Shown: one piece after another, positions 13,784 through 40,854 of the stretch
How positions within the stretch are numbered: the stretch's first letter is position 1
Layout: each line of letters starts with the position of its first letter
NCBI RefSeq assembly: GCF_026210795.1
Contig: NC_089448.1
Span: forward strand, 310,001 to 374,000
Source: Rhizophagus irregularis
Taxonomy: Eukaryota > Glomeromycota > Glomeromycetes > Glomerales > Glomeraceae
Reading direction: 5' to 3'
DNA length: 64,000 nucleotides
The notes under the pieces: model-generated
Told to the model about the DNA's origin: nothing
Databases searched by the model: none
Seen by the model: the letters and a program-made list of their open reading frames with translations, nothing else
Made by a program: the position numbers and the translations under genes

Positions 13784-13799
13784 GGCGAAATTTCATCAC

Positions 13800-16319: not shown

Positions 16320-16484
16320 TCTTTATAAGAATAATTTTTTATAATTGGTTTGTATGATTGTATCTTCAATTATAATTTTCGTAATATTGGAAATATTTAG
16401 TTGTAAGAAAAAAAAATTTTTTGGTTTGACAAAATTACATTCTAAATAAATGTGAATGACAAGTAACGTTTCACAATAAGCAAA

Positions 16485-16506
16485 TTTTACGCCAAATACT
16501 TGATTT
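16485..16506 (-). promoter_or_regulatory. Upstream dyad motif of F-box gene 2
   Basis: TTTTACGCCAAATACTTG is followed by ATTTAGC about 165-190 bases before the ATG. This is the GCCAAAT-N5-ATTTGGC type with one change in the right arm. It is followed by ATCATGTGCTAC and TAGCACATGACAT, a second inverted pair. Confidence 0.5.
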
Positions 16507-16759
16507 AGCTAATGTTTGTATCATCTGCATCATGTGCTACCGACATGCTATAGCACATGACATTGTTAGTACTAGATAGTGGAATTATATTTATGCACTT
16601 ATTTGGCTGTAATACAGTATTAGCGTTAATTGAAGGAAATTTTCTTAGGTCTGAAAAATTATTTTGAAAAATATTATTGATATTAGAAGCATGATAAAAT
16701 AAATCATTGTCTGAAGTTTTATTTGCATATTTTTGCAGGATTTTTAATATCAGGTGTCA

Positions 16760-16888
16760 ATTATGCGTATAATAAGAAAATTTTTCACAATCTGATCCCA
16801 ATATTTCAGACCAAAATCTATTGACTTTTAGACGTGAAAAGAGGTTGTTTTATAATTCTTTAAAGAATATCTTTATTGAGTTGGACAT
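16760..16888 (-). pseudogene. F-box 5'-end relic A
   Basis: Starting at an ATG (16886-16888) the minus strand reads SNSIKI...FKEL, a stop, then FSRLKVNRFWSEI. This is recognisably the first ~40 codons of an F-box paralogue, after which homology stops. The same relic with the same downstream sequence recurs at about 41470-41578 and 45000-45126, so it is part of a duplicated segment. Confidence 0.65.
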
Positions 16889-17481
16889 TCTTTAATAATG
16901 AACTACTTTAATATTAATCTTCATAATTATAATAATAGGATATTTTATATTTCATTTGATATTTTTTTTTAAAAAAAAAAGAAAAAAACAATTTGCTTAT
17001 ATAATAAACGACGGAACCAAACTCTGATTTAATTAAATTATTCTGTGCAATCATAGTAATGGTTGAATAATGTTTGTGCTTATTAATAATACCGGCCTAA
17101 ATTTCGTTAATTAAAATTGTCAAATGTAACATCACATTTATATAATATAATAGTACTTTAACTTAAAGGTAAAAATATAAACTTGTTAATTATCTTTACA
17201 AATTTATTAATAATTTTTTATCCAACTCCATTATTCAATTAGGATCTCCATTTGAAATTGATATATTTTTTTTATTATGATAAAGTGATTAAAAATAAAA
17301 GAGCGAAAATGATTCTGCTAAGTGGTGAGCTTAAATACAAGAACTTTAAACCAACAAAGTGTAATGTACGTTTATCAAGTAAAATTTTTAAGGTTAAATT
17401 CATTTATTAATTCTTAGACTTAATATAGTGTTTATATATACAAAAATATATTAATTCTAAAATGTTGACACTATTAAGATG
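16889..17481. other. Conserved 3' flank of the F-box duplication unit
   Basis: It holds GGAACCAAACTC, a stretch with ATTAAATTATT and TGGTTGAATAATGTTTGTG, then AAGAACTTTAAACC. The same order occurs before F-box gene 6 (about 45670-45900) and partly before gene 4 (about 39020-39220). No gene is present. Confidence 0.45.
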
Positions 17482-18963
17482 TCATTCATATCTTAAGGTC
17501 CTTACTACATTTGTATAAGTATCACTTCTAAAATCTTTGATCACTCCATTATTTTTATATTTATCAATCAATTTTACGTAATCACCTTCTTCATAAATAG
17601 GTTCGGTTGTAAGTATGGAAATTGCACAACCTTTCCATGTTTCTAAGAATTTCTCCAAAGTTCCCAAAGGGAATTCAAAATGGTCACCACAAAATCTAAA
17701 TTCCCTTATATTGATCGGCGTAGAACTAATTAAAATTTTTAATAAATTTTCTCCATTTTCTAAAATTTCCTCATGAGTTAATTCTTCATAGTCTGTATAA
17801 AACATAATTAATAATAATGATTTCAAATTATGACAAGTTTTTAGTAATTTTTCAAGTTCAGCTAGATGTTCATTCGATGGTGGAAATATAAGTGATAAAC
17901 ATTCAATTGAAGGACAAAATTTAGGAATATTACGTATAAAAGTAAGAGAATCTTCATTGAAGTTATCTTCAAAATATTCAATTTCATAAGGTTCTAACAA
18001 GATTTTCTTTAAATGTCCTCCACTATTTTCAATTATAATAGAAGCTGCTACTAAATTACCATAATCTATCATAAATATTTCAAGATCACGATATACACAC
18101 TTTTTTAATTGTTCTTTATCAAAGGACTCAAAATTTGCTATCAATGATTTTATTTTATGAAATTTTGGGAATACCTTTGGTGATGAGCGACTAATAAATT
18201 CAAAGAAAATATTTAAATGAATGATAGTATTTGCACTTTTTTCTAATGAAAAAAGAATCTCTTTGTAATGGTCCGTTCCAGGAGTATATGAATAATACCC
18301 AACATCTCTCCATTCAAAATACTTTAAATTTTTCTGAACTCCAATTAGTTCAACAATCCCATGATAATCGCTTACTTTTACATTAGCAATTATGAGTTTC
18401 TGTATATATTGACATAGCTGTGCTAATCCATAAAAATATGAAGAATCTATTGATGTGTCACATTTTAATTCACAAAGTGATTCAAAACGAAGCATAGCAT
18501 CTGGATAATGAAATATTTGATGTCTAATTGATTTCATATCCAAATATTTTAGCTCTGGAAATTTTTTCATAAAGAGATAATAAAATTCGTGTTCCAAAAG
18601 ATATTGCCCATGAGCTAAAGATGTTCCAATAGAAGTTATAGATTTCGTAGTATCTGTATTAATACTTCTACAGAATGATAAATAATCAAACAAAAGTGTT
18701 TGGTATGAAAATGGCGGCAGTCGGATTCCTTGTCTCATTAGAGATTCTTTAACATCATAAGATAAATAGGAAGCAACGATTGTAAATAAATAATTTTTAT
18801 TATTATAATTAATATCGTTATAACTCCAAGGATTTTTCCATAATATTGGAATCGCATTTTCACACCAAAGTCTATTGACCATTAAACATGAAAAGAGGGA
18901 TTTTGAGTCATCTTGTAATTCTTCAAATATTAAGAAAAGAATGTCTTTATTGAGTTTGGACAT
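17482..18963 (-). CDS. F-box/LRR-like protein 3 (493 aa)
   Basis: An intact intronless frame with the F-box at residues 3-46 (NKDILFLIFEELQDDSKSL, then NAIPILWKNPWSYND). LRR-like repeats include YFYGLAQLCQYIQKLI, FPKFHKIKSLI, NSGGHLKKILLEPYEIE and TCHNLKSLLL. It is very similar to genes 4 and 6 over long stretches, for example PSIECLSLIFPPSNEHL, indicating recent duplication or gene conversion. Its upstream region is cut about 120 bases before the ATG by an 18.2-kb nested insertion (LINE relic plus KDZ element). The dyad motif that its relatives have at that distance now lies at 37284-37305, so expression may be altered although the frame is intact. Confidence 0.87.
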   Translation of the reverse strand: MSKLNKDILFLIFEELQDDSKSLFSCLMVNRLWCENAIPILWKNPWSYNDINYNNKNYLFTIVASYLSYDVKESLMRQGIRLPPFSYQTLLFDYLSFCRSINTDTTKSITSIGTSLAHGQYLLEHEFYYLFMKKFPELKYLDMKSIRHQIFHYPDAMLRFESLCELKCDTSIDSSYFYGLAQLCQYIQKLIIANVKVSDYHGIVELIGVQKNLKYFEWRDVGYYSYTPGTDHYKEILFSLEKSANTIIHLNIFFEFISRSSPKVFPKFHKIKSLIANFESFDKEQLKKCVYRDLEIFMIDYGNLVAASIIIENSGGHLKKILLEPYEIEYFEDNFNEDSLTFIRNIPKFCPSIECLSLIFPPSNEHLAELEKLLKTCHNLKSLLLIMFYTDYEELTHEEILENGENLLKILISSTPINIREFRFCGDHFEFPLGTLEKFLETWKGCAISILTTEPIYEEGDYVKLIDKYKNNGVIKDFRSDTYTNVVRTLRYE

Positions 18964-19083
18964 TCTTTATTAAAATAATCTTATATAATTAGTTTGTATC
19001 TTCAATTATAATTTTACGCAATATTGAAATATTTAATTGTAAAAAAAAAAAAATTTTTTCTTTAAAATAAATGTGAAAGTAAT

Positions 19084-19094: not shown

Positions 19095-19187
19095 GTCAAA
19101 CAAAGAAAAATAATTCTTTAAGTAAAAGGCGTAAAAATCGGATACACAAAAAAAAAAACTACCCAAATGGGAAGATCAACGAAATTC
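19095..19187 (+). pseudogene. Non-LTR retroelement relic, 5' part
   Basis: The 93 bases between the 11-bp duplication and the KDZ element. The plus-strand frame at its right end reads NYPNGKINE and continues at 36236 as IPIDVTNPMKW when the KDZ element and one 6-bp duplication are removed. Together with 36236-37275 this makes a relic of about 1.1 kb. Confidence 0.6.
19182..19187. repeat. 6-bp target duplication of KDZ element, left copy
   Basis: AAATTC lies immediately outside the left terminal repeat and is repeated at 36230-36235 immediately outside the right one. Confidence 0.75.
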
Positions 19188-19370
19188 CCACCCCATTCGC
19201 CTGATCGGCAAAGGATATAACCTTATCCATCGTGTCTCAAATGCATAGGTTATATCCTCCATGGAAACCACGGTTTTTATTGGCCAATACTAAGCAGTGA
19301 TCATGTGACCTTATAAGTGTAGACATTTTATCCTCGTAACTTAAGGACATAATTGTCTTAATAAATTTTG
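19188..19370 (+). repeat. Left terminal inverted repeat of KDZ element
   Basis: Contains TGATCGGCAAA at 19202-19212 and an internal inverted pair, GGATATAACCTTATCC and GGTTATATCC. It matches the reverse complement of 36047-36229 almost base for base and leads directly into the minisatellite at TAATAAATTTTGAGG. Confidence 0.85.
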
Positions 19371-21020
19371 AGGACATGTTTGTCCTTGTAATGTTGAGGA
19401 CATTTTTGTCCTCGTAATAATCTTGAGGACATTTCTGTCCTTGTAAATTTTGAGGACATGTTTGTCCTTGTAATCTTGAGGATATTGCTGTCCTTGTAAA
19501 TTTTGAGGACATTGCTGTTTTTGTAAATTTTGAGGACATGTTTGTCCTCATAATCTTGAAGGACATTGTTGTCCTTGTAAATTTTGAGGACATGTTTGTC
19601 CTTGTAATCTTGAGGATATTGCTGTCCTTGTAAATTTTGAGGACATTGCTGTTTTTGTAAATTTTGAGGACATGTTTGTCCTTGTAAATTGTAATGTTGA
19701 GGACATTTTTGTCCTCGTAATAATCTTGAGGACATTTCTGTCCTTGTAAATTTTGAGGACATGTTTGTCCTCATAATCTTGAAGGACATTGTTGTCCTTG
19801 TAAATTTTGAGGACATGTTTGTCCTTGTAATCTTGAGGACATTGTTGTCCTTGTAAATTTTGAGGACATGTTTGTCCTTGTAATCTTGAGGACATTGCTG
19901 TCCTTGTAGATTTTGAGGACATGTTTGTCCTTGTAATCTTGAAGACATTGCTGTCCTTGTAAATTTTGAGGACATGTTTGTCCTTGTAATGTTGAGGGCA
20001 TTGTTGTCCTTGTAAATTTTGAGGACATGTTTGTCCTTGTAATCTTGAGGACATTGCTGTCCTTGTAGATTTTGAGGACATGTTTGTCCTTGTAATCTTG
20101 AGGACATTGCTGTCCTTGTAGATTTTGAGGACATGTTTGTCCTTGTAATCTTGAGGACATTGCTGTCCTTGTAGATTTTGAGGACATTGTTGTCCTTGTA
20201 AATTTTGAGGACATGTTTGTCCTTGTAATCTTGAGGACATTGTTATTCTTGTAAATTTTGAGAAATTTTGAAATTGTGATTCTCGTAATTTTGATGATAT
20301 TGCTATTCTCATAATTTTGATTGTTCTTGTAAATTTTGAGGACACTATATCCTTATAAATTTGAGGACATTTTTGTCCTTATAATTTGAAAACATTTTTG
20401 TTCTTGTAATTTGAGAACATTATTGTCCCTATAATTTGAGAATATTTTTGTCCTCATAATTTCGAGGACATTTTTGACCTCATAGTTTGATGATATTGTT
20501 ATACTTGTAATTTGAGCTTGTAAATTTGAGACCATTTTTGTTCTTGTAATTTTAATTATATTGCTGTCCTCATAATTTGAGGACATTTTTGTCCTCATAA
20601 TTTTGATGATATTGTTGCCCTCGTAAATTTAAGGATATTATTGTCCTTATAATTTTACAGACATTTTTGTACTCGTAATTTTGATGGTATTGCTGTCCTC
20701 ATAAGTTGAGGACATTTTTGTCCTCGTAATTTTAATGATATTGTTATCCTCATAATTTGAGGACATTATTGTCCTTGTAGTCTTGCCCTATAAAAAAATT
20801 TTGTGCTTTATTTGTGCCAAATGGGTTAATCATATGATATTTATTTAGAATTTGTTTGAATTTTATATAATTTTTAGTACAAATTTCGAATAAATATTGC
20901 ATGATTAGCCCATTTGGCACAAATTTAGCACAAACCTTTTTTATAGGGCTGATGACATTGTTGTCCTTGTAAATTTTAGGACATTAGTAAATTTGAGACA
21001 TTTTTTTATGTCCTCATGAT
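19371..21020 (-). repeat. Left minisatellite arm (26-27-bp dyad units)
   Basis: More than 50 units of about 26-27 bp. The most regular are GAGGACATGTTTGTCC, TTGTAATCTT, GAGGACATTGCTGTCC and TTGTAAATTTT. Many units carry the inverted repeat GAGGACA-N4-TGTCCTC or a close form. Units near the end (19371-20240) are homogeneous; those further in are degenerate. All three minus frames stay open for 100-265 codons because the doublet is not a multiple of three, so the reading cycles through peptides such as SSKFTRTAM, PQNLQGQQC and LKIYKDNNV. These are not considered genes. A MITE interrupts the inner part. Confidence 0.85.
20786..20948. mobile_element. CCCTATAAA-type MITE inside the left arm, 163 bp
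   Basis: Inverted ends CCCTATAAAAAAATTTTGTG and partner match for about 48 bases with few differences and include the shared block TTTGTGCCAAATGGG. The flanks are TTG and CTG, a probable 3-bp duplication with one change. It interrupts a minisatellite unit. Confidence 0.75.
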
Positions 21021-21098
21021 TCATATTTTTTGTATAGTGGTAATTTAAAATTAACTTTTATTTCATTATTTAAAATGTTAAAATGTATTAATATTATT

Positions 21099-21249
21099 CC
21101 CAGTAAATAGTTTTTGTATTAATTTGTACCAAATGGGCTCATCCATATATAATTTGGCTTAAATTTGGATTATTTTTTGCATAAATTTGAGCTAATTTCG
21201 AGCCAATGAGCCCGTTTGGTATAAATTTATACAAAAACTATTTACTGGG
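21099..21249. mobile_element. CCCAGTAAATAG-type MITE, 151 bp
   Basis: Inverted ends CCCAGTAAATAGTTTTTGTA match for about 44 bases, with the subterminal block TACCAAATGGGCTCAT shared with the element at 20786. Both sides carry ATT (21096-21098, 21250-21252). It has no coding capacity. Confidence 0.75.
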
Positions 21250-21581
21250 ATTTAATGGACATATCACATATATATACACATATATATATGAAAAGCTCTA
21301 AATATTACATAAAATAAGACTTTATAAATGCAAAAAAATTTGTTCTTATAAACAACCTGTAATGTAAGAAATGCGGAAATCAATTTTATGATTATTTAAT
21401 CAATCTTTAAGATTATTATTTCTTTTCATCTGTTTATTAATGAAAAATTAATTAATTCAAATGTATTGATTAAATTATAATATAGCAACAGATTTGATTA
21501 CATGAATTAAACTTGTTGAGTATTTTATTTATTATTGATTAATATTATTATTCTTATTGCACTAATTAGTTCACCAATATC

Positions 21582-23115
21582 CTATTCATTTTGTTCAAAT
21601 CTAATGTTATAAAGTGAATCCAGAACTTTAATTCTTTCTTCTTCTTTAAGATTAGAATAATCCTGAAATTCAACATCTAATGGCCATCCTATAACTTTAT
21701 ATGAAGTTTGTGTTTTCCATCTTTTATATGGTATATTATTACCTTTTACATCTTGTTCTATAATATAATTACAGTAAATGTTATTTTTAAATTAAACTTG
21801 AATTAAAATTAATTGAATACTTACCAAACTTTTGCCGCAAAATAAATCTTACTTTATTTCTTGTTTCAATGCTATTAGGTTTTGAAATATTGATAGCAGA
21901 TAGATTAAAAGTATGTCCAGTTTCAGATTCATCTGGCAAAATTTCAGATGACTTAGTTTCAGCAACAGATTTGATTACTCCTTCATTTTCTTATATACAG
22001 AATAAATACATACAGGTTGTTGTTAAAAAATCAAATGTAATATATAATAATATATGAACATTATATACCTTTTTTTTTTAAAATAGAGAAACAACGAAAT
22101 GGAATGATTGCATCACTTAAGTTGCTATAAGTCTGATAAAATTCTTCACCAATATTTGATCCAAACCAATGACTTCTAAGCTCATCATAATTGGATACAG
22201 CCAATGTAATAAACTCCATGCCACAAGTAACATGTAAAGTTCGAAACTACAAGTTGTAATTTATTATTATTACAAAATTAGATAGATACTACCAAGATAA
22301 TATTAATTTACCATTTTTCGGATATCTTGAATTCCATTATTTAGTTGTGTTTTTCGTGATTTTGCATTTGTAATAAATGAGTTTTGCTCTTTAACACGTA
22401 AATTTGCAGCATTTTTAGCTTCTTCTTCATAATATTTACGTGTATCATTATTTAATGCATTCCATGCATCTGCACAGAGTTTTTGGGACCCTTTATCTTT
22501 AATATTTAAGCCTTTAAAATAAAGTAAAATTGTTAAAACATTGAAATTTAAATTTTAAGTAATATAAATCAGTTTATATATACACACCTTTTCCATGTGT
22601 TGCCCACCAATTAGATTGCCAAATATTAAATCCACTGATTTTTCTTTGTTTTCTAATAGCAGGTTCTCTATAATCTTTCATTACACTCTAATATAAAATG
22701 AGCATTTTAAATATCAAATTTTTAAGGATTAAACATTATTAAGTTTGCCTACCTTTATAAAATATGAATGCACATTAAGTTCATTAGCTAATAATTCAAT
22801 TTCAGAATCATGCTGTTGCTGCAAATTTTTAATTTTTGCAAATGCTTCTACATTTAATTCTGAAACTATAAATTGTTAAATTATTAGTATTTATTCCTTT
22901 TTTAAAAAAAATTACTAAATAAAATATTTTATTAAATTAAATTTATAAAATTTGCATTTAATAAAATCTAGTATATCAACCCATTATACTGTTTAGCCAA
23001 AAATATATTTTAGTTTTTTTATTCTATTTTTCTATTCTTTGTTAGCATATATTCTTGTATTTTATAAATATTTACCACTTAAGTCAGAATCTAAGTCAAA
23101 GTTATTATTTTCCAT
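21582..23115 (-). CDS. HMG-box protein of the KDZ element (~410 aa, 7 exons)
   Basis: ATG at 23113-23115, stop TAG at 21582-21584. Seven exons join in phase through GT-AG introns of about 55-110 bases. For example, exon 5 ends in AAAAAAAAG before GTATAT and exon 6 restores the frame as ENEGVIKS. An HMG-box-like region spans residues about 65-125: GFNIWQSNWWATHGK, then LCADAWNALNNDTRKYYEEE, with the Trp and Tyr spacing of the fold that bends DNA in the minor groove. The start is acidic (ENNNFDLDSDLS). The C-terminal 200 residues are unrecognised. The motif TTTGCCGATCA and a TATATATAT box lie 55-75 bases upstream. It could help assemble the transposition complex or act in host chromatin; this role is an inference. 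Confidence 0.75.
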
Positions 23116-23174
23116 CTCAATGAACGAAGCCAAGAATAACGCGTAACAATGCGTCATAATATAACATATATATA

Positions 23175-23185
23175 TTTGCCGATCA
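23175..23185 (-). promoter_or_regulatory. TTTGCCGATCA motif upstream of the HMG-box gene
   Basis: The exact 11-mer is also found in both terminal repeats and at 33386-33396. In gene orientation it directly precedes the TATA box (AAATATATATATG) of the HMG-box gene. A shared transposase or regulator site is an inference. Confidence 0.5.
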
Positions 23186-23369
23186 GTCAGGTGATAAAAC
23201 GTTATTTCAAAAAATTATATATCTTAATGTAAATTTACAATCTAAACAAATTTATTGTATTATCTCATAGTAAATCCACCAAATTTTATTGATTTTATTT
23301 AATAACAAGATAGAATAAAACAAAAAGAGAAAGTACATGTAAAAAAGTAAATAATAATGTCTAACTACT

Positions 23370-25274
23370 TTAATTTGCAACATTGCTTTCGTTACTTTCA
23401 CTATCTTCCGTATCTAGATCCATATTATCTTGCATATTAGGATTTTGAAATAAATTTTTGATCGTTCCTAGTTTTAAATCAGTCAAAAATATATCGTAAT
23501 AATAATCTGTAACTTCAAAATTTGAAATGTTAAGACCAGTATTTACTAACTGATCAAGCGTAATCCCAATATTAATTAATTTATATATTCTAAAAGCACT
23601 TTTCTTTTGTCGCCGTTCAGTTCTAGTATGAATACCTAATTGGGTGCACATAAAGTTTCGTTCAAATCTTCTTTGTTCTCTCTCATCATTTGGATGTTTT
23701 TCCACTGAAATGATATGTAAATCATTGTAAATATAAACAAGTGACATTCGATGATAAAGCTTATAAGCTTTAGTAGCAAGCTCAACTTGTTTAGAATGAT
23801 TTTTTTGATCGACCCATTGCGTAATTCTTTCCTTAGCAGACTCTTCATCTGTAATTTGAATTGGTTCTGAAGTCATAACTTTTAAAGCCTGGTTAAAATT
23901 TGTGCGAATTTGGTAGTCTTTAATTTCTACTAAAGTCTTGTTCTCAATGGTTTTTACTACCAAACTATTTAGACTTTTTCCAAAATTAGAATATTTTTTT
24001 TTCTTTTCACTTTCTTGTGATTCTGTTATTTAATTTAAAAAATTCAATCAAATTATAAAAATTAAAATAAATTTAGAATTATCAATATTTTAATGTCATT
24101 TACCTTTGCTAGCAATAACTTTTTTCTCAAAATTTTCAACTACCATATTACGACCTTTTTTAATATAAGAATATAGATTGATTAATTATGGTAAATTTAT
24201 AATATCAATATATTTTAATAAAACAAATAAATTAATATAAGCCATATAAATAAATATTATTGCTACTTGAAATTCTTACCTTCTTCCTTTTTTTCATAAG
24301 AGTTATATTAACTTTATTAATCCAAAGTTCAACAAGTAAATAATATTGATTAAATTTATCCCAAATTGTATAAGAAGGTAATGTTTTTTCTGCCCATCGT
24401 AATTCTTCTATATCAGTTGATTCTTTAATAAGTTCTTCAAAACCAAATTTTTCATGACAACGTTTATTTAGTGACTCCCAAACATCATCTGGATTGCTTT
24501 CTATCGTAAATCCCATTTGATGTAAATCATTTACAAGTATATTAATATGGTCATTATTTCTTTGTAGTGAAGTATTATCCTCATCTTCACTATCTGAACT
24601 AGAAACTATTGTTGAAGAGCTTTTTGACATATTAATTTGGTCGGATTTTCTTCTGAACTTATTGATTTTTTTCTATTTGCAATTAAGAATTTCATTAAAT
24701 TGAATTAATCTTTAAAACGTAAAAACTAAATCTAATATGCATTTACATTTACCTCAAGATTATGATTATAAATTTGCAATGAATTTAACTCATCATTAAG
24801 TTGCTTATTTTTTATTTTTAATTTTTCATAAGTTTTTTCGGCAATTAGCAACTTTTCCTAATATAAAATTAAATTATAAAGATAAGCTGCTTAAATTAAC
24901 GTTAATAAACAAGGTTTATTATATATGTAAACCTTACTTGCAATTGATCTATTTTCTTTACATGCTCAACATCGCAATTTTTTTCAGAATCCTAGAAGTT
25001 AAATTATTAAAATGATTACCATTTAATACTTTTATTAAAAAATTACAATATATATAATTAAAATATTAATTATATGAACCTGATCGGTTATAATATAATT
25101 GGAATCTTCAAGGTTAACTGTTATCCTGTCAATACGTTTACCATAAGAAATATTTGCAATATTATCTGTTATAGTAACATTACGTAACCGATATTTAGTT
25201 CTTCTCCAAATTAGTGATAATGCCTTGCTAATTTGAGTTATGTCATCTTCACTTAAGGTAAATATTTCTGCCAT
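23370..25274 (-). CDS. Coiled-coil/acidic protein of the KDZ element, function unknown (~490 aa, 6 exons)
   Basis: ATG at 25272-25274, stop TAA at 23370-23372. Exon 1 (MAEIFTLSEDDITQISK, 65 residues) is followed by two exons forming a coiled coil (VKKIDQLQEKLL, KIKNKQLNDELNSLQ). A Ser/Asp-rich patch (SSSTIVSSSDSEDEDN) and a Trp-containing helical region come next. The last exon has the basic block FERNFMCTQLGIHTRTERRQ and an acidic end (DLDTEDSESNESN). All junctions are GT-AG. At the exon 4-5 junction the strongest donor (GTAAGA) breaks the frame, while a weaker GTAGCA donor 17 bases downstream keeps it, so this structure needs transcript data. I do not recognise the family. Its place between the transposase and HMG genes on the same strand suggests an accessory transposition or regulatory role. 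Confidence 0.65.
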
Positions 25275-25431
25275 ATTTTTGTTATCAATAATACAGACTT
25301 GCTTATAATACTCTTAAGAAAAAATAAGGTCATAGTATTTCCTTTTAAAAATTTTTGGTTTTATGTATATAATGCATATCCACAATACAAAATATAAAGC
25401 TTACCAGTTTAGCTTTTATTTTGAACTTTTA

Positions 25432-25555
25432 ATCAAATAGAGCATAGAGCAAAAAAAATAGACGTGATGTTTATGGTCAAATAGAGCAAAAAAAAATAGA
25501 CGTGATGTTTATGGTCAAATAGAGCAAAAAAAAATAGACGTGATGTTTATTTTAT
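25432..25555. repeat. Three ~39-bp tandem repeats upstream of the coiled-coil gene
   Basis: The unit is AAATAGAGCAAAAAAAAATA then GACGTGATGTTTATGGTC, repeated at about 25434, 25478 and 25517. It contains TGACGT-like CRE half sites (GACGTGATG). Confidence 0.7.
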
Positions 25556-25612
25556 ATTCTTAAATGTTTCACAAAATGATACATATTCTGAAGCATTACG
25601 CACCTGTGATAA

Positions 25613-26150
25613 AAATAGTTTGCTATTTTTAGTATTGAAAAACGCGTTTAACTCAATAAACATTTAAGATAATACTAAAAATAGTTTACTATTTTAGTAT
25701 TGTAAAAACGCGTTTAACTCAATAAACGTTTACTATTTTAGTATTGAAAAACGCGTTTAACTCAATAAACATTTAAGATAATACTAAAAATAGTTTACTA
25801 TTTTAATATTGAAAAACGCGTTTAACTCAATAAACGTTTGAGATAATACTAAAAATAGTTTACTATTTTAGTATTGAAAAACGCGTTTAACTCAATAAAC
25901 ATTTAAGATACTACTAAAAATAGTTTACTATTTTAATATTGAAAAAACGCGTTTAATTCAATAATGAGATAATACTAAAAACAGTTTACTATTTTAATAT
26001 TGAAAAACGCGTTTAACTCAATAAACATTTGAGACTATTTTTATATTTTTAGTATTGAAAAAACATGTTTAATTAGATATCAGACAATAAACTTGTCCCA
26101 GATTTATTAGATTTATTTGAGATGATACTAAAATTAGTAAACTATTTTTA
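25613..26150. repeat. Seven ~65-bp units with AACGCGTT and a long hairpin
   Basis: AACGCGTT palindromes lie at about 25641, 25708, 25750, 25815, 25880, 25946 and 26007. Each is followed by TAACTCAATAAAC. Between them lies an inverted pair, AATACTAAAAATAGT and ACTATTTTAGTATT, separated by two bases. ACGCGT is the core of the yeast MluI cell-cycle box, but no function is shown here. Confidence 0.8.
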
Positions 26151-29100
26151 TTACAGGTGTAAAATTATTTACTCCATATTCCAATCTGCAAACATGGTAA
26201 ATTTTTTGTAGACATTTGTACAGCTTTTTAAATGATTATTTTAACAAAATATTGCTAATGTTTCTTTTTTTCTAGATTTTAGGTATTTCTTTAGAAGCAA
26301 TATTGACATTTTGAAAGAATTTAGACTAAAATATTTTTTTTTGTTGCTTCTTTTAATAGAATGTCAAATAACATTTTATTTTATATTTGAACATTTCTAT
26401 ATATGTATTTCTACATTTAAAAGGTATATACCAAAATGTTTTTTTGTTTTTGAATGAAAAGTTAGCTAATGTTTGTAGGACTACAGAATTTAAGCATGTG
26501 AATTTTATTGTTCTTTTACCTTTTAGACATAATTACTTTTTAATCTTGTTATTTTTTATCTTTGGAATGTGATTTTTGTTGTTCTTCATCTTTGGGAGTA
26601 ATCATTTTTTTTTTTAATATTACATTAAAAAAATATAATTTGACCAGTACTCTAAATTATCTCTAAATAAATGTTTATCAAAATGTAAATGCATGAATGA
26701 ATTACTGAAATAGCTATAATATTAGTGTCTATATCATTGATTTACCTTATCACTATTTTCGCATTTTTTATTAATTAAAATATTTTTATTTTTAATAAAA
26801 TTTCGCTCAAAAACATATAAAAAATTTTAACACAAAAAAATTTTTTTCTGGGGTCTGAAGACCCCCCAGACCCCCTCCTTAGGCCTTTTTTTTTTTATCA
26901 TTTATTAATTTTTTTCTCAAATTTATTATTATTATTTTTAATTTTTTATTATTTATTTACATTTCTTATTCATTGTAAAACGTGAAAGCTACAATAAAAT
27001 AAAAATAAGTAATAATATTATTAGTATAGTAATATTATTCATATATACAGTTCTTAAAAAAAGTAATCAGAACTATAAAAAATGCAAAAAATAAAGAATC
27101 ATAATTAGAATACCTTTAAATTTTGCAAATTTGTTAAAATTTTAAAAAATACTTAAATACTTACTTAAATATTGTCAATCTGCCTATATTTTTATTAAAA
27201 AAACTATAAACATAAAGGGTTAATTTATTGAAAAATTTGTTTTGCTAGTTTTTTATTAAATTAAAATTAAAATTGACTCAAAATTTAAATTTTTAAAATT
27301 AAGATAAATTTAAATATATTAAACTTAAATTAATATTTTTTTTATTTATTTATTTTGAAAATTATTGATTAAAACTAAATATAAATGTTGATCATCATGA
27401 TTAATTTTAATATATTAAACTTAAATTAATAATTTTTTTTTTATTTATTTTGAAAATTATTGATTAAAACTAAATATAAATGTTGATCATCATGATATTT
27501 TCAATAACTATCAAATAATAAAGTGTTAAACTTTTTTTAATAAAATTGATAGTATAAATCAAAATTTTAATTATTCAATTTTTAATAAACTGGCAAATTG
27601 AATGCTTTATAAAAATTTAATATTTTTCATAGCTTAAATTTTTAACAAATTTTTTTTCAAGATAGAAGGTTGAAATTTTATACACATAAAGTTTGTAACT
27701 TTGTATATTTAATAACAAATTTATAAAATTTGAAGAAGCCCTAATCACCAGTTTTTTATTTTTTTGCATTTTTTTTTGTAATTCTAATTTCTAAATACTT
27801 TTTTTGAGGAATGTAAATAGGTTTTTGTTAATTGTATATTTATAAAATGTATTGCATATTATTATACATTACTGTACATCATCATACATTGGTCACTATA
27901 TAATGCATATTTTCTTTATGCTTAAAATAGACAACATTAATACTAATGCATATGATTATAAGTTTTCTAGTCAATCCTTTTTAAAAAATTTTAACCAGGC
28001 TTTTATTTTTTTTAATAAGTATTAGGGTAGTATGGTTTTGTTTAATAAATTTGTTAGAGAATTTTTTTAAGAATTATTTCATTGGAATTTTTTTAGGAAT
28101 TTGTTTTACTAATAGTTCTTTTGTCAGAAGATAAATTTTATAATTTGAATAAATTTATAATTTTAATTATTGTTTTAATAAATATTAAAAAATAAATTAC
28201 TAATATGTGAAAAAATCAAAAAAAGGATACAAATTTAAAAACAGTTTGTAATGAGTAAAAAAAATGCTTTTTATAGCAATTATTGTTATACTTCTAATCT
28301 TTTTAAAGGTTTCTGCTATCTATTTTGTAATTGATATCTTTATATACCACAATAAAAAAAGCAAAGACAAATTGTCTATTGTCCATATAGCTTATTTATT
28401 AGAATTCTATTTTAGCTTAAATTCTTTTAATTTTATCTTTAGTTAATCTGTTATGTAATTTAATTTTATTTTCATTATCTATTTCAGATTTTTTTTAATT
28501 TTATTTCATAATAATATTTTTTAATTTATCTTTAATTAATTATTAATAACCTTTTTTGTATTATTTAGTTTCAGATTTTTTTTAATTTTACTAATTTTAT
28601 TATATTTGTAATTTATTATTTTCTTAAATTTATAGTTAATTTACCTGAATAATTCTTTTAAATTATTTTAGCATTTTTATTTTTATTTTTATGACACTTT
28701 TATTTTATTTTTTTAACTCCATTTATTTAATTTTATTTAATTAAATTTATTTACTGTTTAATAATTTTAAAAATACTAATATCTTCATAATAAAAAAATC
28801 AACATTAAAGGAAAAAAAATTAGTATTTTAAATTTGAATATTAGGAATTTAAATGCATATTATTTAGTGTGTTAAAAGCATATTTTTCATACAATAATTA
28901 CTAGTAATTTAATCAGTTGATAATTATTATTTAATAAATAGATAAAAGTTTATTAAATATATCTAAATTTGAGTTTTATAGCAAGTTTACTTTTTTTGTT
29001 ATCTAAAATATGGCTGCTTTAGCTTGGATGCAAAAGTATTGATCTTGACCAATCAGATGGTATTTTCTTGACACATCAAGGAATTTCTTATAATTCCTAG

Positions 29101-29531
29101 TACCCATTAAAATTTAAAACCTTGATCTTTTATTTTTATTAATTAAAAAAGGCATTTGAATGCCATCATTTAAAAAAATAAATTATACAGATATATCATT
29201 AAATAAATTTTTTTCTAAGTATTTTTTAACAAATAATAATTAATAACAATGAGTTCACATAATAATAATCATTATTGAAATTTTTTTAATTTTTTTTTCT
29301 AATAGTATAAACTGGTATGCAAGAAAAATTCATACAAAATTTTCTTTTTTTATAATATATAATACAATAATATGTATAAATTTATTGTTGTGTATACTAT
29401 GCTAAATATTCAAATAAATCACAAAATGAAAAAGTAAAAATGTCCAACTGAGGTAAAAGTTCTGGTATCCACCTCTTTCAATATTTTTATAATCATTATA
29501 TTATTACTTCTTTCTGTTCTTTAATTTTATC
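26151..29531. other. AT-rich spacer inside the KDZ element, no gene supported
   Basis: Short plus frames at 26387-26572 and 28264-28446 have no domain, conserved start context or splice structure. Two direct copies of a ~95-bp block containing ATGTTGATCATCATGAT lie at about 27302-27397 and 27398-27495. A compact dyad, GGGGTCTGAAGACCCC, is at 26850-26865 in the only G+C-rich spot. A decayed fourth gene or a recombination spacer are both possible. Confidence 0.4.
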
Positions 29532-32500
29532 TTAATCTTCATTTTCCTCTTCTTTATTTTCTTTTTCTTCACTCTCCTCTTCTTCACTCTCCTCTTCTTC
29601 ATTTTCTTCTTCCTTATCCTCTACTTCCTCATTCTCTTCTTCATATCTTTCTTCTTCATCTTCCTCAATAAAGTTAAAATCCTCATCATAAATAATATTT
29701 TGATTATTATCATCGTCTCCAAAAATCTTATTTTTCATATTTTTAGCTATTTCTAAATTTAATGATATCTTATCTAACTCTTTCATTAAATTGCAATATA
29801 TTCCATCCTAAAATAATAAAATTTATTAATTTATTAATAAAGTAATTCAATCATATAAATTTATTTACCTTTTTTTCCTGAAATTTAATAGCTTTTTCAA
29901 TGAGTTCCTTTTGTTCTAACCAAAAAATAACAAGTCTTGTAATTTCAGATTTGACAAGTTCTTGCTCTTCTTTACTTCTATTAAGGTTATTGAAATTTTG
30001 TATTGCATTGTACATAATAATTCGTGGTATATTGCAATTTTCATCTAAAATAATATCTAGTGATATCCAAAAATTAGATTGATTATCTAAAACATTCTTG
30101 ATTGATGCTGTTAGATATTTTTTCTTTTGTGTAGACGATAAAAATTCTCTTGTTTGATTATAATTTTCAATTGTCTTATTTATATTGGTTAATGCATTAG
30201 CATTCAAATTTTTAATTTTTGATGCTAACTTTTGACCTTTTAAAAATAATATTATAATTAATATATAATTAACAATTTATACATTACATATAAAAAAATT
30301 TTATTACCTTTGTGAAATTCATTATATAAATAAGATGAATTGAATAAATATTCATTTCTTTCTTTTCTCAATCCATCAATAAATTTAGATAGTTGATTAA
30401 TACAATAAAATTCAAGATATGCACTATATTTTGAATCCATAGGATCCCACCGATGTGTTTTAGGTATACTTAATGATATTTCATAATTTTCAATTTTTTT
30501 AAGTATATTATCATGTTTTTTTCTTAAAAGTTCTTTCTTCTTTATATTATTAATCTTTGTAGTTTCAATGCTAATAGTAGAATTATAAAATTTTAGTATT
30601 CTATTAATAATTGCAAATTATTACAATATATAATGCAATACACTAACTTAATACTTCTTAATTCCATTAATAATTCAAAGTATGCATGTTCTCCTTCTAA
30701 ATGATGCTTAAATGCTAATGGTAAAAAAATATTAGTTATATACAATCTAACATATTTTAATAATAATATTTATACTGTACCATATTCAGAAGTCTTTTGT
30801 TTTTCTATTGTTTCTTCAATTAACTTGAAATCTATATTATGTTGTTGATTTAGAAGACTTAATTTTTCTAATGATTCATGTTCTACTTTTTTTGCATTTT
30901 TGTATCTCTTGAACAGATTATTTGCTATAATAAATAAATAATAATTAGTAATTTACTTTTAGAAAATAATTATAATCGATAATATACATTTCAAACCTAA
31001 TTTTTCTACAGATTTTTGATAATGAAATTCAAGTGCTGTTCCTATAATATCCAATCTATGACCAAATTTCATATATTTAGTAGTTTTGGCAAATTTGCCA
31101 AGGTAAGACCACAATCTCTCCAGTGATTCACCATCAGTAAGACCTACTGATTTAATTACCCTTGGATGGTATTTTTGTTGGCATTTTGATGTATGGGCAT
31201 ATGCATGAAATATAGAAACTGCCCATGTAAATCTTTCATGATAAGGGTAAAGGATATTGTTTGGATTGGCAATATGAGCATCAAGAAAACAAGCAATATC
31301 ATATAAAAATATAAATTTCTGATTTGATTTTGAAAATTGCTGTTGAAAATGATCAATTAAACATTCTGCTAGAACATATCTAATTAAATTATTTAATAAT
31401 TATTAAATTAATATGAATAATAATATTATAATAGTCAAATTTATTTATTACCTTTCACCCATATTACGCAAATTTAAAAATTTTAAGGGAATTCCATGCC
31501 GACATGTACTTCCAAATATTCCTGTATCATCTAAATGTTTAAATTTTTGAAGAGATTTTATTTGGTTAGTGGCCTTAAAATTGGATTCACATGATGTTGG
31601 CCCGGTCTATTTTTTTAAAATAAATAAATAAATAAATAAATAAAAATTAAAAATCTTATATATGTTAATAAATATATTAACAACTTATATAGCTTATAAA
31701 TAAATTAATATTTACCTCGGATTTATTGTTATTATTCATTAAGTGAATATTAGTAGTTGAAGCTTGATTATTTGATAACAACCAACATCTAAAATTATCT
31801 TCAGAAATAATAAATCTATCATTAACTAATCGATTTTCAACATCATTTCCCGCACTTTTTAATCTTTTTAGCTGAAAGTTTCCATCAAATGCTATAATAG
31901 TATTTGAATTTTCTTCATTTGGCTAAATAAAAGTTGTAAAAATATTATAGTTAGCTTTTATTAATTATATTGATTAATGTTTTAATAAAATATTGGTCTA
32001 AAGAATGAATATAATATTTTTATACTATAAATATGAATTATTTATTTTGTTATAAATAAGTAAAAATAAAAATATACTTGTGGACATGCAGGACATCCAA
32101 ACTCATTATCATTATTTTTATAAGCTTTTCTAAAATTAGTCTGAATTCTTGATTTCAATCCAAGATATTGATGAAATGAAGAAATAAATGAATGATATAT
32201 ATTCTACAAATTATATAAAATTAGAATTATTACAATAAAATTTTAATATATAAAGCTGAAAAACTTACTTGTGTTATAATTTGTTTACTTTGTAATGCTT
32301 CTAAAACTTTGCAAAATGCCAAATATGGCACATGTGCTTCAAAAAGTAATTTATAATAAAGTTCAAATACTTCAAAATCAAAAGCAAGTGAAGGGTTGCA
32401 AGGTGTTGCAGGAAATAATCCATTTTTGATTAATGAATTTACATTTCCATCACATGCTGGAAGCTGAATATAAAACCATCCTAAAATATAAACAATTAGA

Positions 32501-33318
32501 ATTATAAATTATTAAATAACTGAAGTTTAGAAAAATTAAAGTTACTTTAGTTACCTTTTAATGTAATTGTTAAAATTCTAATTATAGAATGCTCACAATT
32601 TCCTTCACATAATTGTGGCAATTTTACATCATTTGATTGAATTTGAAAATTTTCAAATATAAGAGTACGATGAAATAAATTGACCTTGTGATGAAAAATA
32701 TTAAAACATGAATTACAATAAAATATTTTTGTTCCACAATCCAAGCACCTTAATACAGCCAAATTATTACAATTAATGCAAGTTGCATTGCTTGGAATTG
32801 CTTCATTTTCTAACATAATATTATAAATATCATCCATCCCCATTTTCCAATTTGTTGAAAGTGTAATTTGTCTTTGTTGATAACTAATATTTTTGTGATT
32901 GGAATTATTATCAGCAAATTCTATTTCACCAGTATTTTCATATTCATCATTCTTTGCTTCTAAAATTTGCTTAACTTGAAGTTTTGTATAACTGGATGCT
33001 TTATACTTATTTATTCCTTTAGAAAATTTATTGTTTATAACTCTTCCAGCATCTTTATTATTAAAGGAAACTCTATAAGGTCTATAAAATTTTGGTCCTT
33101 TAAATGTAAAATAAAGCGGAAAATTGTTATTACATCTTAAAAAATTTAAACTTTAATTATATTGACTGACCTTTTTTTGTTTTAGTATTAAGAGTATTTT
33201 TCTCAAAATTCATAGAATTTATCTCTTTAACCTTAAATTTAATAAATAAAGATGTTTATATTAGTATTCATAAATTATTTTTAACATTATTAAAACATAC
33301 TTTGTTGAAATCTGACAT
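29532..33318 (-). CDS. KDZ-type DDE transposase with CxC-like zinc cluster (~950 aa, 13 exons)
   Basis: It cuts and rejoins the element's ends. ATG 33316-33318, stop TAA 29532-29534. Thirteen exons join in frame through short GT-AG introns. Residues about 133-170 form a Cys/His cluster (CINC, CLDCG, CNSC, FHHK, FHR) of the kind that precedes KDZ domains. The region LFPATPCNPSLAFD at 229-242 is typical of the family. CPAC is at 315-318. The RNase H-like core follows: Asp in AFDGNFQLKRL (about 333), CRHGIPL (423-429), GER, Asp in LYDIACFLD (about 467), FHAYAHTSKCQQKYHPR (about 498) and the Glu in TDGESLERLW (about 524). RWDPMDSKY lies near 688. The C-terminus is almost pure Glu/Asp. The length suits the family and no stop or shift was found. 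A TATA-like CATATAAAG and TTTGCCGATCA lie 55-80 bases upstream. Confidence 0.88.
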
Positions 33319-33385
33319 TTTATTAATTAAAAAAAATCGAAAAAGATCAATTATTAAGATAATCTCTTTATATGATATTAATGAA

Positions 33386-33396
33386 TGATCGGCAAA
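33386..33396 (-). promoter_or_regulatory. TTTGCCGATCA motif upstream of the KDZ transposase
   Basis: The exact 11-mer, also present in both terminal repeats, sits about 70 bases before the transposase ATG and just upstream of its TATA-like box. It would allow the transposase to repress or activate its own promoter; this is an inference. Confidence 0.5.
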
Positions 33397-33559
33397 CAAA
33401 AATGCAAATCCAACTGTTACCTACGTAAATGATCATAAGATTAATATGAATTATGGAAAATGATATATGAATGTAGTCTATTTAATTAAGATACAACATA
33501 TAGATAAAAATAATCTCTAATAATTAAATCCAAAAATGTGAGGCAACTCAAGTAATGAA

Positions 33560-36046
33560 GACAAAATGTTTTTAAAATTATGAAAACACAAGTTACAAGG
33601 ATACAATATCTTCAAATTATTACAAGGATAAAAATATCCTCAAAATTATGAGGATAGCAATATCATTAAAATTACAAGGACAAAAATGGCCTCAAATTTA
33701 CAAGTACAGCAATGTATATTCTCAAAATCTACAAGTACAACAATGTTCTCAAAATTATAAGGATAGCAATATTATCAAAATTATAAAGACAAAAATGTCC
33801 TCAATATTATGAGGACAGCAATATCATCAAAATTATGAGAACAATAATATATATTATCAAAATTATGAGGACTAAAATGTTCTCATTACAAGGACATCAA
33901 ATTTATAAGGACAACAATGTCTCAAAATTATGGGGACAGCAATATCATTAAAATTATAAGAACAAAAACATCCTCAAATTACAAGGATAAAAATGTCCTC
34001 AAATTATGAGAATAGCAATAACATTAATATTATGAGGACAATAATATCATCAAAATTATGAGGACAAAAATGTCCTCAAAATTATAAGGACAAAAATGTC
34101 CTCAAAATTATAAAGACAAAAATGTCCTCAAAATTATGAGGATAGCAATATCATCAAAATTATGAGAACAATAATATATATTATTAAAATTATGAGGACT
34201 AAAATGTCCTTAAATTGCAAGGACATCAAATTTATAAGGACAGCAATGTATGTTCTAAATCTACAAAAACAACAATGTCTCAAAATTATGGGGACAGCAA
34301 TATCATTAAAATTATAAGGACAACAACATCCTCAAATTACAAGGACAAAAATGTCCTCAAATTATGAGAACAGCAATAACATTAATATTATGAGGACAAT
34401 AATATCATCAAAATTATGAGGACAAAAATGTCCTCAAAATTATGAGGATAGCAATATCATCAAAATTATGAGAACAAAAATGTCCTCAAAATTATGAGGA
34501 TAGCAATATCATCAAAATTATGAGGACAAAAATGTCCTCAAAATTATGAGGATAGCAATATCATCAAAATTATGAGAACAATAATATATATTATCAAAAT
34601 TATGAGGACTAAAATGTCCTTAAATTGCAAGGACATCAAATTTATAAGGACAACAATGTATGTTCTAAATCTACAAAAACAACAATGTCTCAAAATTATG
34701 GGGACAGCAATATCATTAAAATTATAAGGACAACAACATCCTCAAATTACAAGGACAAAAATGTCCTCAAATTATGAGAACAGCAATAACATTAATATTA
34801 TGAGGACAATAATATCATCAAAATTATGAGGACAAAAATGTCCTAAAAATTATGAGGATAGCAATATCATCAAAATTATGAGGACAAAAATGTCCTCAAA
34901 ATTATGAGGATAGCAATATCATCAAAATTATGAGGACAAAAATGTCCTCAAAATTATGAGGATAGCAATATCATCAAAATTATGAGGACAAAAATGTCCT
35001 CAAAATTATGAGGATAGCAATATCATCAAAATTATGAGAACAATAATATATATTATCAAAATTATGAGGACTAAAATGTCCTTAAATTGCAAGGACATCA
35101 AATTTATAAGGACAACAATGTATGTTCTAAATCTACAAAAACAACAATGTCTCAAAATTATGGGGACAGCAATATCATTAAAATTATATGGACAACAACA
35201 TCCTCAAATTACAAGGACAAAAATGTCCTCAAATTATGAGAACAGCAATAACATTAATATTATGAGGAAAATAATATCATCAAAATTATGAGGACAAAAA
35301 TGTCCTCAAAATTATGAGGACAACAATATCATCCAAATTATGAGGACAAAAATATCATCAAAATTATGAGGACAAAATATCATGAGAACAAAAATGTTCT
35401 CAAATTTACAAGGACAACAATGTATGTATGTTCTCAAAATTTACAAGGACAACAATGTTCTCAAAATTATAAGAATAGCAATATTATCAAAATTACAAGG
35501 ACAAAAATGTCCTCAAACTTATAAGAACAGTAGAGGACAGCAATATCATTAAAATTACGAGAACAATAATATTATCAAAATTATGAGGACAAATATGTCA
35601 GGACATCAAATTTATAAGGACAACAATGCATGTTCTCAAAATCCACAAAGACAACAATGTCCTGAGGACAGCAAAATCTTCAAAATTATAAGGACAAGAA
35701 TGTCCTCAAATTACAAGAACAAAAATGTCCTCAAATTTACAAGGGCAATGGTATTCTCAAAATTTACAAGGACAACAGTGTCCTCAATATTTACAAGGAC
35801 AACGATGTCCTCAATATTATGAGGTCAAACATGTCCTCAACTTACAAGGACAACAATGTCCTCAAGATTATGAGGACAAACATGTCCTCAAAATTTACAA
35901 GGACAGCAATGTCCTCAAGATTACGAGGACAAAAATGTCCTCAAAATTTACAAGGACAGCAATGTCCTCAAGATTATGAGGACAAAAATCTCTTCAAAAT
36001 TTACAAGGACAACAATGCCCTCAAAATTATGAGGACAAAAATGTCC
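33560..36046 (+). repeat. Right minisatellite arm with higher-order repeats
   Basis: The units are the mirror image of the left arm (GAGGACAAAAATGTCCTC, AAAATTAT or AAAATTTACAA). Units near the end (35720-36046) are homogeneous and the inner part is diverged. The inner part is organised in longer blocks recurring near 33841, 34168, 34578 and 35039, each beginning ACAATAATATATATTATCAA, with spacing of 327, 410 and 461 bases. The arm is longer than the left one by about 0.8 kb. The plus-strand frames here (for example 35725-35979) are repeat artefacts. Confidence 0.85.
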
Positions 36047-36229
36047 TCAAATTTATTAAGACAATAATGTCCTTAAGTTACGAGGATAAAATGTCTACAC
36101 TTATAAGGTCACATGATCACTGCTTAGTATTGGCCAATAAAAACCGTGGTTTCCATGGAGGATATAACCTATGCATTTGAGACACGATGGATAAGGTTAT
36201 ATCCTTTGCCGATCAGGCGAATGGGGTGG
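36047..36229 (-). repeat. Right terminal inverted repeat of KDZ element
   Basis: Reverse complement of 19188-19370, ending ATGGGGTGG. It contains TTTGCCGATCA at 36205-36215 and is followed by AAATTC (36230-36235). Confidence 0.85.
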
Positions 36230-36235
36230 AAATTC
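36230..36235. repeat. 6-bp target duplication of KDZ element, right copy
   Basis: AAATTC is identical to 19182-19187. Confidence 0.75.
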
Positions 36236-37275
36236 CGATTGACGTAACAAATCCGATGAAATGGCCGGAATGTAATTATGCCGCAGCATCACGTTGGGTT
36301 ACATTTTACGATTTTCCTTGGTATTGGAAATATAAGATCAAATTAAGAAGTGTAGGTCACGTGGAGAAAATGAGCATCAAACGAAGTTATAAATACAAGA
36401 CGGTCAAGGCTAAACTTTGATTCACAATAATCTATGAAGAAATTTATAAGCGAGGAGGGGCCAAGATAACAATTAATAAGAACGATCATCAATATTTCTT
36501 CAGAATGTTTGATTTTAAGTTAACACCACGGGAGATAAATAAAAAATTTTGTTGGCAAGCGTGCAAGCAAATTTCTATAAGAAATAAGACAACGGATGGT
36601 AAATTGTGAAAGAATATAATATAAAATACGTAGACTTTTTCGGTAAAGTTATTAGGATTAACAAAATGAATATATCTTAATATACTTTAACAACGAAAAT
36701 GATATGACGAACGCGATATATAAATGATAAATCAGGGACGGAAGATGAGTTAGGAAAAGGATTACAATTAAAAAGTCAAGATGAACTTATAGGAAAGGAC
36801 GGTACTTTCAGGTTTCGGAGGATCCACAAGACGAAGCCAAACAACGGGATGTCGGACAAGTTCAAAGACGAACAAATTCACGATACAAGGAATAGTCTAC
36901 GGAATCAGAAGGAACTTGGAAATGACAAGATTGCAACTTTTAACAATTTGAACGAGGTTTTTAGTGGTAGAATTGATAGAATTAATGAAATTAACGACAA
37001 TCACAGGGTGTCAACGGGTAAGGTATCAAAATAAAAGAAAGATGGAGGGATTGTAAATGAAAACAATAATCGTGTAGCGTTAGATCAGGTGACTAGCGGA
37101 TTGTGAGGATGATAACGAATAAAGATTTTAACACTGTAAATTTTAGTACTATATTAGACGAGTTTCAAATTAGCTTTAGTATAGATTCAAATTTTGTATT
37201 AGATAGATACTTTATTAACACAATGTATTGATTACTTTTGTAATTTTCTTCAAAACTAAATAAAGAAAAAAAAAA
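36236..37275 (+). pseudogene. Non-LTR (LINE-like) retroelement relic, 3' part
   Basis: The first frame continues from 19187 as IPIDVTNPMKWPECNYA, passes an aromatic stretch (YDFPWYWKYKIKL) and stops at 36420. Further open pieces (for example MSDKFKDEQIHD at 36849) are separated by many stops. The segment is less AT-rich than its surroundings. It ends in AAATAAAGAAAAAAAAAA, an A-rich tail, directly before the 11-bp duplication at 37276. Tail plus long duplication indicate target-primed insertion. No reverse transcriptase motif remains, so the clade is unknown. Confidence 0.6.
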
Positions 37276-40752: not shown

Positions 40753-40854
40753 TCTTCATCAAAATAATATTTTATAATTTGTTTGTATATTTAATTATAA
40801 TTTTTCGTAATATTGAAATGTAAAAAAAAAAGTTTTTTTAACACAATGAGTAAA

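Follow-up and report, generated by a model that had tools for sequence, protein, structure and literature searches.

The closest described systems are KDZ transposons of other fungi, among which KDZ1–KDZ3 of Cryptococcus are mobile and have inverted repeats of 139–241 bp with a target site duplication (TSD) of usually 8 bp (PMC12810828), the usual length in KDZ elements (PMC12730594, PMC12810828). Accessory genes in fungal KDZ elements are already known, and TET/JBP dioxygenases of KDZ elements have been proposed to counter silencing (PMC12730594). Giant KDZ elements of the brown alga Ectocarpus (to 30.3 kb) and of Chlamydomonas (31.7 kb, active) are cited in PMC12477816. In Rhizophagus irregularis about two thirds of transposable elements were unclassified, and the curated library limited elements with terminal inverted repeats to lengths of 1–17 kb (PMC11075540), a filter that the elements described here with lengths of 17.0–17.8 kb just exceed.

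The elements of R. irregularis share with the fungal KDZ elements (Cryptococcus KDZ1–KDZ3, PMC12810828; Zisupton-1_PGr, PMC12730594) a KDZ transposase, terminal inverted repeats, an 8-bp TSD and mobility; the cysteine-rich N-terminus of those transposases has a possible counterpart here. They differ in measuring 17–18.5 kb against the 9–11 kb of those elements, in carrying a conserved pair of accessory genes (one HMG/GTF2I-like, one coiled-coil) where the latter have none or TET/JBP, and in having kilobase arms filled with a conserved dyad. The giants are likewise very large, with extra genes and nested insertions, whereas the sections of PMC12477816 consulted mention neither the accessory pair nor dyad arms for them; the KDZ literature searched makes no mention of HMG. 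Of the combination that the earlier note had thought new, large size alone is already known in KDZ.

The window (the whole 64,000-nt stretch analyzed) contains a complete KDZ transposon, the contig C20 copy of what is here called family A, at 19189–36228 (17,040 bp; no strand assigned). Its boundaries, CACCCC...GGGGTG, were fixed by comparing the window copy with ten other elements, all of which have them in common. The terminal inverted repeats (left, 19189–19368, plus strand; right, 36049–36228, minus strand) are 180 bp long and identical at 179 of 180 positions when element bases 1–180 are compared with the reverse complement of the other end, much as the near-perfect ends of ~185 bp noticed earlier; a repeat search of the window returned an inverted pair of 189 nt with 98% identity. 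The element is flanked by the direct duplication GAAATTCC (19181–19188 and 36229–36236, plus strand); a target duplication had been proposed earlier and is present, but its length is 8 bp (GAAATTCC) and not 6 bp.

All three spliced minus-strand genes reported earlier are found, here with 13, 6 and 7 exons, although one of them is frameshifted in the window copy. The transposase gene (29532–33318, minus strand; 13 exons, all introns GT-AG) encodes 943 aa, and its assignment to KDZ is borne out by a match to the KDZ transposase domain PF18758 at aa 328–558 (Pfam E 2.7e-47). It contains the motifs DGN (333), YDIAC (467) and DGESLERLWS (523); these are retained between families A and B (DGN as DGN/DAN) and we take them to be the acidic catalytic positions of an RNase-H-like fold. 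A putative cysteine cluster before the transposase domain resembles CxC2 (E 7e-5) and a B-box (E 5.5e-6), both under the Pfam cut-off.

Accessory gene 1 (23370–25274, minus strand; 6 exons) encodes the coiled-coil protein, whose frame is broken in the window copy by a 1-nt frameshift, one base being missing from a homopolymeric A run in exon 4. A cryptic splice donor that would keep the frame was considered and rejected, as comparison with the other copies showed that a base is missing; the gene is intact (483 aa) in the C25 copy only. Exon 6 (23370–24022, minus strand) corresponds to a C-terminal domain that is predicted to consist entirely of helices (pLDDT 82), for which neither a convincing PDB fold match (best Foldseek E 1.0) nor a convincing Pfam or PDB sequence relative was found. 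Separate occurrence of the three genes elsewhere, which the earlier note had named as a point against a single element, was found in part, for the coiled-coil gene only: about 25 relatives lie in the genome away from KDZ transposases. The idea that this wider family belongs to Plavaka elements was rejected, there being no consistent neighborhood.

Accessory gene 2 (21582–23115, minus strand; 7 exons, 323 aa) is intact in the window copy. The HMG box ascribed to it earlier is a weak match (Pfam E 0.0015–0.06): all four family members match HMG_box_2 below the Pfam cut-off, with a best E of 0.0015 for the cut-out region, and PDB profile matches are mostly to HMGB1/SOX (best E 0.014). The same protein has a second, GTF2I-like domain, which the earlier note had no means of seeing. 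Its C-terminal 70 aa align over nearly the full GTF2I repeat PF02946 (E 6.9e-4; 20.3 bits vs a cut-off of 27), and all six PF02946 matches in the organism's own genome at E up to 1 fall on HMG-like genes. With an AF2 model of the last exon the top nine Foldseek matches in PDB are all GTF2I domains (E 0.4), while VIA-align gave no Z of 2 or more. The likeness of the C-terminal domain to the TFII-I/GTF2I repeat proteins of vertebrates is weak; unlike those proteins, the HMG-like protein has a single such domain, is fungal, and sits in a transposon. To our knowledge the GTF2I repeat is known only from animal TFII-I transcription factors. The gene retains its introns, and dN/dS, although the estimates are saturated, is 0.25–0.48, well below 1. 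As a source of the HMG-gene expansion of arbuscular mycorrhizal fungi the element was rejected, since none of 35 HMG_box_2 matches in a genome scan (E up to 0.001) lies in these elements.

Between the ends and the genes lie inverted arms of a dyad minisatellite, AGGACA-N4-TGTCCT. The left arm (19322–20780, plus strand) has a spacing of 26–27 bp, and the outermost 2 kb on this side contain 30 exact GGACA-N4-TGTCC; the right arm (33593–36095, minus strand) combines units of ~26 bp with a higher-order repeat of ~410 bp. The minisatellite of the window copy fills 1.60 kb inward from the left end, as claimed earlier, and 2.67 kb inward from the right end rather than the 2.5 kb claimed. No dyad occurs in 11.7 kb of element interior or in 46.8 kb of surrounding DNA, and in the 147-Mb genome there are 327 exact long dyads (vs 0 for the reversed control), at least 243 of them inside these elements. 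Every copy read retains AGGACA-N4-TGTCCT in its arms, non-coding relatives included, and family B has the same dyad although its inverted repeat differs and its units are 55 bp long. The arms are evidently unstable arrays, as their lengths vary by hundreds of bp among copies whose interiors are only ~0.1% apart, and this would suit minisatellites without function that arose when a single palindrome close to the ends was multiplied by replication slippage. We consider that origin improbable, however, as the 4-bp spacer is nearly constant among exact dyads and the core is kept across units of 26/27, 24/25 and 55 bp; under drift a 16-bp core would not stay the same as the surrounding unit changed.

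The earlier note had anticipated that a genuine element would occur in several full copies at differently flanked sites, with target duplications and all three genes, and this was found: family A comprises the window copy and three more, with interiors 99.8–99.9% identical (10–26 mismatches in 12.8 kb among the four). Nor do the ends occur only in the window, for besides these full copies seven relatives share them. Exact 8-bp duplications, each element having its own, flank 10 of the 11 elements (all four full copies and six of seven relatives); the remaining relative, C2, was not counted, its right end being too diverged for the test. The TSD of family B is also 8 bp. When the two flanks of the C17 copy are joined, they align along their whole length (~400 bp, 97–99% identity) with 13 unoccupied repeats, and the survival of this repeat without an insertion at 13 other loci shows true transposition; the joined flanks of the window copy match only themselves, so that the genome search yielded no empty site for that insertion. 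Copies have thus moved, and recent mobility, deemed plausible earlier, is probable. Near-identity of copies might also come from segmental duplication or misassembly, but the different flanks, the separate 8-bp duplication of each copy and the 13 empty sites leave this explanation a negligible probability, and on the sequence evidence we regard it as already refuted; likewise, the same inverted arms at four independent loci rule out that they are an assembly artefact.

The seven relatives range from 8.6 to 33 kb, and none has similarity to the three window proteins. The two relatives of 8.6 kb that were scanned showed no long open frames; those of 23 and 33 kb have open frames judged by eye to be of reverse-transcriptase/integrase type, which we read as probable nested retroelements.

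The genes themselves recur together. Each of the 11 loci where the transposase match is substantial (families A, four; B, five; C and D) also has both the coiled-coil and the HMG-like gene, at nearest distances of 2.7–17.5 kb, for which the chance is near 1% and 0.5% per locus; the accessory pair is thus present in at least three further KDZ families of the genome besides family A. Judged from these sequences, the two genes are not random cargo. No copy in the assembly has all three genes intact, and most breaks are single-base homopolymer indels that are possibly assembly errors. The same three genes in distant relatives, together with ends made of hundreds of copies of one short palindrome, give the element the look of a transposon that was active not long ago and depends on helper proteins, not of one with random passengers.

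In maize En/Spm the cutting is done by TNPD, while TNPA is the protein that binds subterminal repeats. We propose, with a probability of roughly three in four, that the element belongs to a multi-component lineage within the KDZ superfamily and has recently moved by cut and paste, organized by analogy like En/Spm with helpers on subterminal sites, though with unrelated proteins. The transposase (DDE/RNase-H-type) would cut at the inverted repeats and join the ends to the target over an 8-bp stagger, and an element-encoded protein would occupy the dyads as an array of binding sites and draw together ends that lie far apart, the likeliest candidates being the HMG/GTF2I-like protein, the coiled-coil protein or both. 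These proteins may also act in trans on the relatives that lack the three genes. The proposed likeness to En/Spm (CACTA, maize) and to the 20.5-kb Tgmt* of soybean (PMC2613891) lies in a transposase plus helper on many subterminal repeats and in non-autonomous elements moved in trans. Both have an unrelated transposase, CACTA ends and a 3-bp TSD, whereas the R. irregularis element has CACCCC ends, an 8-bp TSD and a KDZ transposase, and membership of CACTA/En-Spm (CACTA ends, 3-bp TSD, tnp2) was rejected on these grounds.

An unlikely competitor is that the transposase alone suffices, the accessory genes being cargo of long standing with an effect on silencing or host expression and the dyad arms being promoters or boundaries. 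HMG boxes and GTF2I repeats are indeed chromatin/DNA-binding types, and the proposed anti-silencing role of TET/JBP in other KDZ elements (PMC12730594) lends this some precedent; but the confinement of the dyad to the arms, its retention in relatives that lack the genes and its spread across families with different inverted repeats fit a cis requirement for movement better. The strongest version of the multi-component reading, in which all three proteins are needed for KDZ movement, the HMG/GTF2I-like helper reads the dyads, and the GTF2I repeat is an old transposon DNA-binding domain captured by or shared with animal factors, is improbable.

For work on this family the dyad is highly specific as a DNA tag and allows members, gene-bearing or gene-less, to be found in any strain. 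If real, the GTF2I-like domain would be an unexpected relative for a vertebrate transcription-factor fold. A multi-component KDZ system would sit in a fungus without easy genetics; if the multi-component reading is true, KDZ transposition could be tested as a system of several proteins and defined cis sites.

The borders of the KDZ transposon on contig C20 were fixed at window positions 19189 and 36228 by comparing its ends with other loci in the genome (146.7 Mb, assembled into 32 contigs, with the window at C20 bases 310001-374000). The element begins with CACCCCATTCGCC and finishes with its complement; 179 of the 180 outermost bases are identical between the inverted repeats, and the 8-bp target duplication GAAATTCC is present in both flanks. 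The transposon end occurs at 41 places in the genome, 27 of which align over more than 100 bp, and three further full copies have paired ends (C28:2055009-2072822, C25:3320462-3337897 and C17:3022352-3039473), each with its own 8-bp duplication (TGGTAATT, CATCTAAT and TACATAAA, respectively). The four full copies differ by 10-26 substitutions per pair over a 12.8-kb interior. When the four flank pairs were joined, with one target copy each, and used as empty-site queries, matches at their own loci were split into halves, and the joined flanks of the C17 copy matched 13 other loci unbroken over ~400 bp at 97-99% (query 1200-1600, junction 1400); the C17 copy was thus inserted in a repeat that is unoccupied elsewhere. 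At the level of sequence comparison, movement with an 8-bp duplication is established. The C28 copy also contains an 893-bp nested insertion at window position ~27871, with TA on both sides and ends ACAGTCGCGTCCGAAAG, which looks like a Tc1/mariner-type non-autonomous element.

The transposon splits a tandem array (12135-18966 and 39232-47394) made up of six or more similar ORFs, all on the minus strand and about 495 aa long; they are F-box-like, one of them matching the F-box Pfam profile at E 0.001, below the cut-off. Its left end lies ~220 bp upstream of ORF 17485-18966, possibly within the promoter of that gene. Farther out, the region 6157-7364 contains a match to a DDE_3 (Tc1/mariner-type) transposase at 6591-7364; the preceding open frame (6157-6636) may be the beginning of the same transposase in a different frame.

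Three genes with GT-AG introns lie on the minus strand in the order transposase (33318-29532; 13 exons, 943 aa), coiled-coil gene (25274-23370; 6 exons) and HMG-like gene (23115-21582; 7 exons, 323 aa). The transposase contains a KDZ domain (E 2.7e-47), with weaker B-box-like and CxC2-like matches N-terminal to it, and its frame is open in all four full copies, that on C17 lacking one splice acceptor. For the HMG-like gene, the C20 and C17 copies have an open frame, and those on C28 and C25 are shifted by a 1-nt homopolymer gap; the coiled-coil gene has an open frame in the C25 copy only. Because such single-base homopolymer gaps may be assembly errors, the statement that no copy is fully intact holds for this assembly. 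Upstream of the coiled-coil gene, on the side facing the transposase, is a tandem repeat (25618-26074, motif AAACGCGTTT) that may serve as a promoter or as another regulatory array.

Genome-wide searches with the individual proteins revealed this gene trio in three other, divergent KDZ families: B (five copies, on C2, C9 and C10 and two on C4, four of them with at most 4 differences in 3,333 bases), C (C10, 4.2 Mb) and D (C5, 0.49 Mb). Exon by exon, their transposases are about 32-72% identical to that of the window element's family, A, with most values at 40-60%. At each of the 11 loci where the transposase match is substantial, both partner genes lie no more than 17.5 kb away; three weak KDZ fragments (C15, C18 and C10:2.78 Mb) have neither close by. 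Gene order and strand vary from family to family, so the set has been kept despite rearrangement, as these comparisons show. The HMG-like proteins of families B-D are 37-60% identical to that of A, with introns at corresponding places, and their dN/dS of about 0.25-0.48 is to be read as below 1, no more, since dS is near saturation.

The HMG-like protein of every family matches HMG_box_2 weakly, and HMGB1 is the top PDB hit of a profile built from the four proteins (E 0.014). Conservation is highest in the protein's last 70 aa (IPYKxW...GWPxxVxFxxYxxL). The Pfam GTF2I profile is matched by families B (E 6.9e-4) and C (0.16), with no match for the A or D proteins; a GTF2I repeat ranked first in a PDB profile search (E 0.095), and hhalign gave 78% probability to the top-ranked GTF2I chain, as a pairwise test only. 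All six matches in a genome scan with PF02946 (E up to 1) fall at loci that the HMG-like protein search also detects. When the last exon was modeled by itself with AlphaFold2 (pLDDT 70), the nine best Foldseek hits of 350,542 chains were GTF2I domains, at E 0.4 and worse; VIA-align of this model gave no Z of 2 or above. A GTF2I-like C-terminal domain is likely, though unproven; these searches share sequence information and are not independent. Relatives of the HMG-like protein with no KDZ match close by lie at C3:1501363-1502406, C31:190412-190849, C23:1490588 and C11:187886, two of which also match the GTF2I profile; they are either decayed families or host genes. The C-terminal domain of the coiled-coil protein is confidently modeled as all-helical (pLDDT 82), and no known relatives of it were found. 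About 25 other loci, with no KDZ match close by, carry sequences related to its N-terminal as well as its C-terminal part, a dispersed, partly near-identical family (C28, C1, C13, C21, C26 and about 20 more loci).

Between the inverted repeats and the genes lie inverted minisatellite arms of 1.60 and 2.67 kb, built on the dyad AGGACA-N4-TGTCCT, with a spacer of 4 in nearly all exact cases. Family A dyads mostly recur every 26-27 bp, those of the relatives often every 24-25 bp; none occurs in 11.7 kb of element interior or in 46.8 kb of surrounding window, and a crude, pair-wise shuffled arm control gave a mean of 0.09. Family B has a different inverted repeat (CACCCCAGCCAAATG...) and 8-bp duplications (TATATATA at C10; TTTGACTG plus one additional C at C9), and the consensus of its arms (about 26 units of 55 bp) contains GAGGACA-ATAA-TGTCCTC. 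The genome contains 327 sites of the form GAGGACA-N4-TGTCCTC, versus 0 for the reversed control, and at least 243 of these sites lie inside elements or ends identified here, including all 41 on contig C2, which fall in two elements; by estimate the two C4 family B copies would hold most of the remainder. The arms of near-identical copies differ in length by as much as 475 bp. The arrays are thus unstable while their core is conserved, as expected of a protein-binding site; retention of the dyads is clear from the sequences compared. At the left arm's inner edge, two short hairpin-like sequences seen by eye (20786-20945, CCCTATAAAAAA...TTTTTTATAGGG; 21099-21251, CCCAGTAAATAG...CTATTTACTGGG) look like nested MITEs.

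Relatives without the three genes exist alongside the full element. Seven further elements of 8.6-33 kb, six with an exact 8-bp duplication, have ends ~86-94% alike to those of the window element and no similarity to any of its three proteins. In the two 8.6-kb relatives that were scanned, no open frame exceeds 106 aa; open frames in the 23- and 33-kb relatives, judged by eye, resemble one LTR and one non-LTR retroelement. A decayed relative at C25:2.34 Mb keeps one end with the HMG-like and coiled-coil genes, without a transposase match. Other paired ends, 2.7-5.7 kb apart (C9:1668380-1671037, C1:5406250-5411978 and others), have only ~70 bp (~80%) in common with the window inverted repeat and are probably another non-autonomous group.

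Active KDZ elements are known from Cryptococcus, where the inverted repeats measure 139-241 bp and the duplications 4-8 bp, most of them 8 bp (PMC12810828); TET/JBP-carrying ones are known from Basidiomycota and Ascomycota (PMC12730594), and algae have KDZ elements of 30 kb (PMC12477816). In the papers searched, KDZ of Glomeromycotina appears only as a search profile (PMC11075540) and KDZ with HMG or GTF2I domains not at all; Iyer et al. 2014, the basic KDZ paper, may describe more. The layout, not the descent, would be like that of En/Spm, in which TNPA binds subterminal repeats, TNPA and TNPD are both needed, and defective elements that retain the cis sites can be moved in trans (PMC2613891). 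By the mechanism proposed here, the KDZ enzyme would be a DDE-type, cut-and-paste transposase, a helper protein on the dyads would pair the element ends, and the element's proteins may act in trans on its gene-less relatives.
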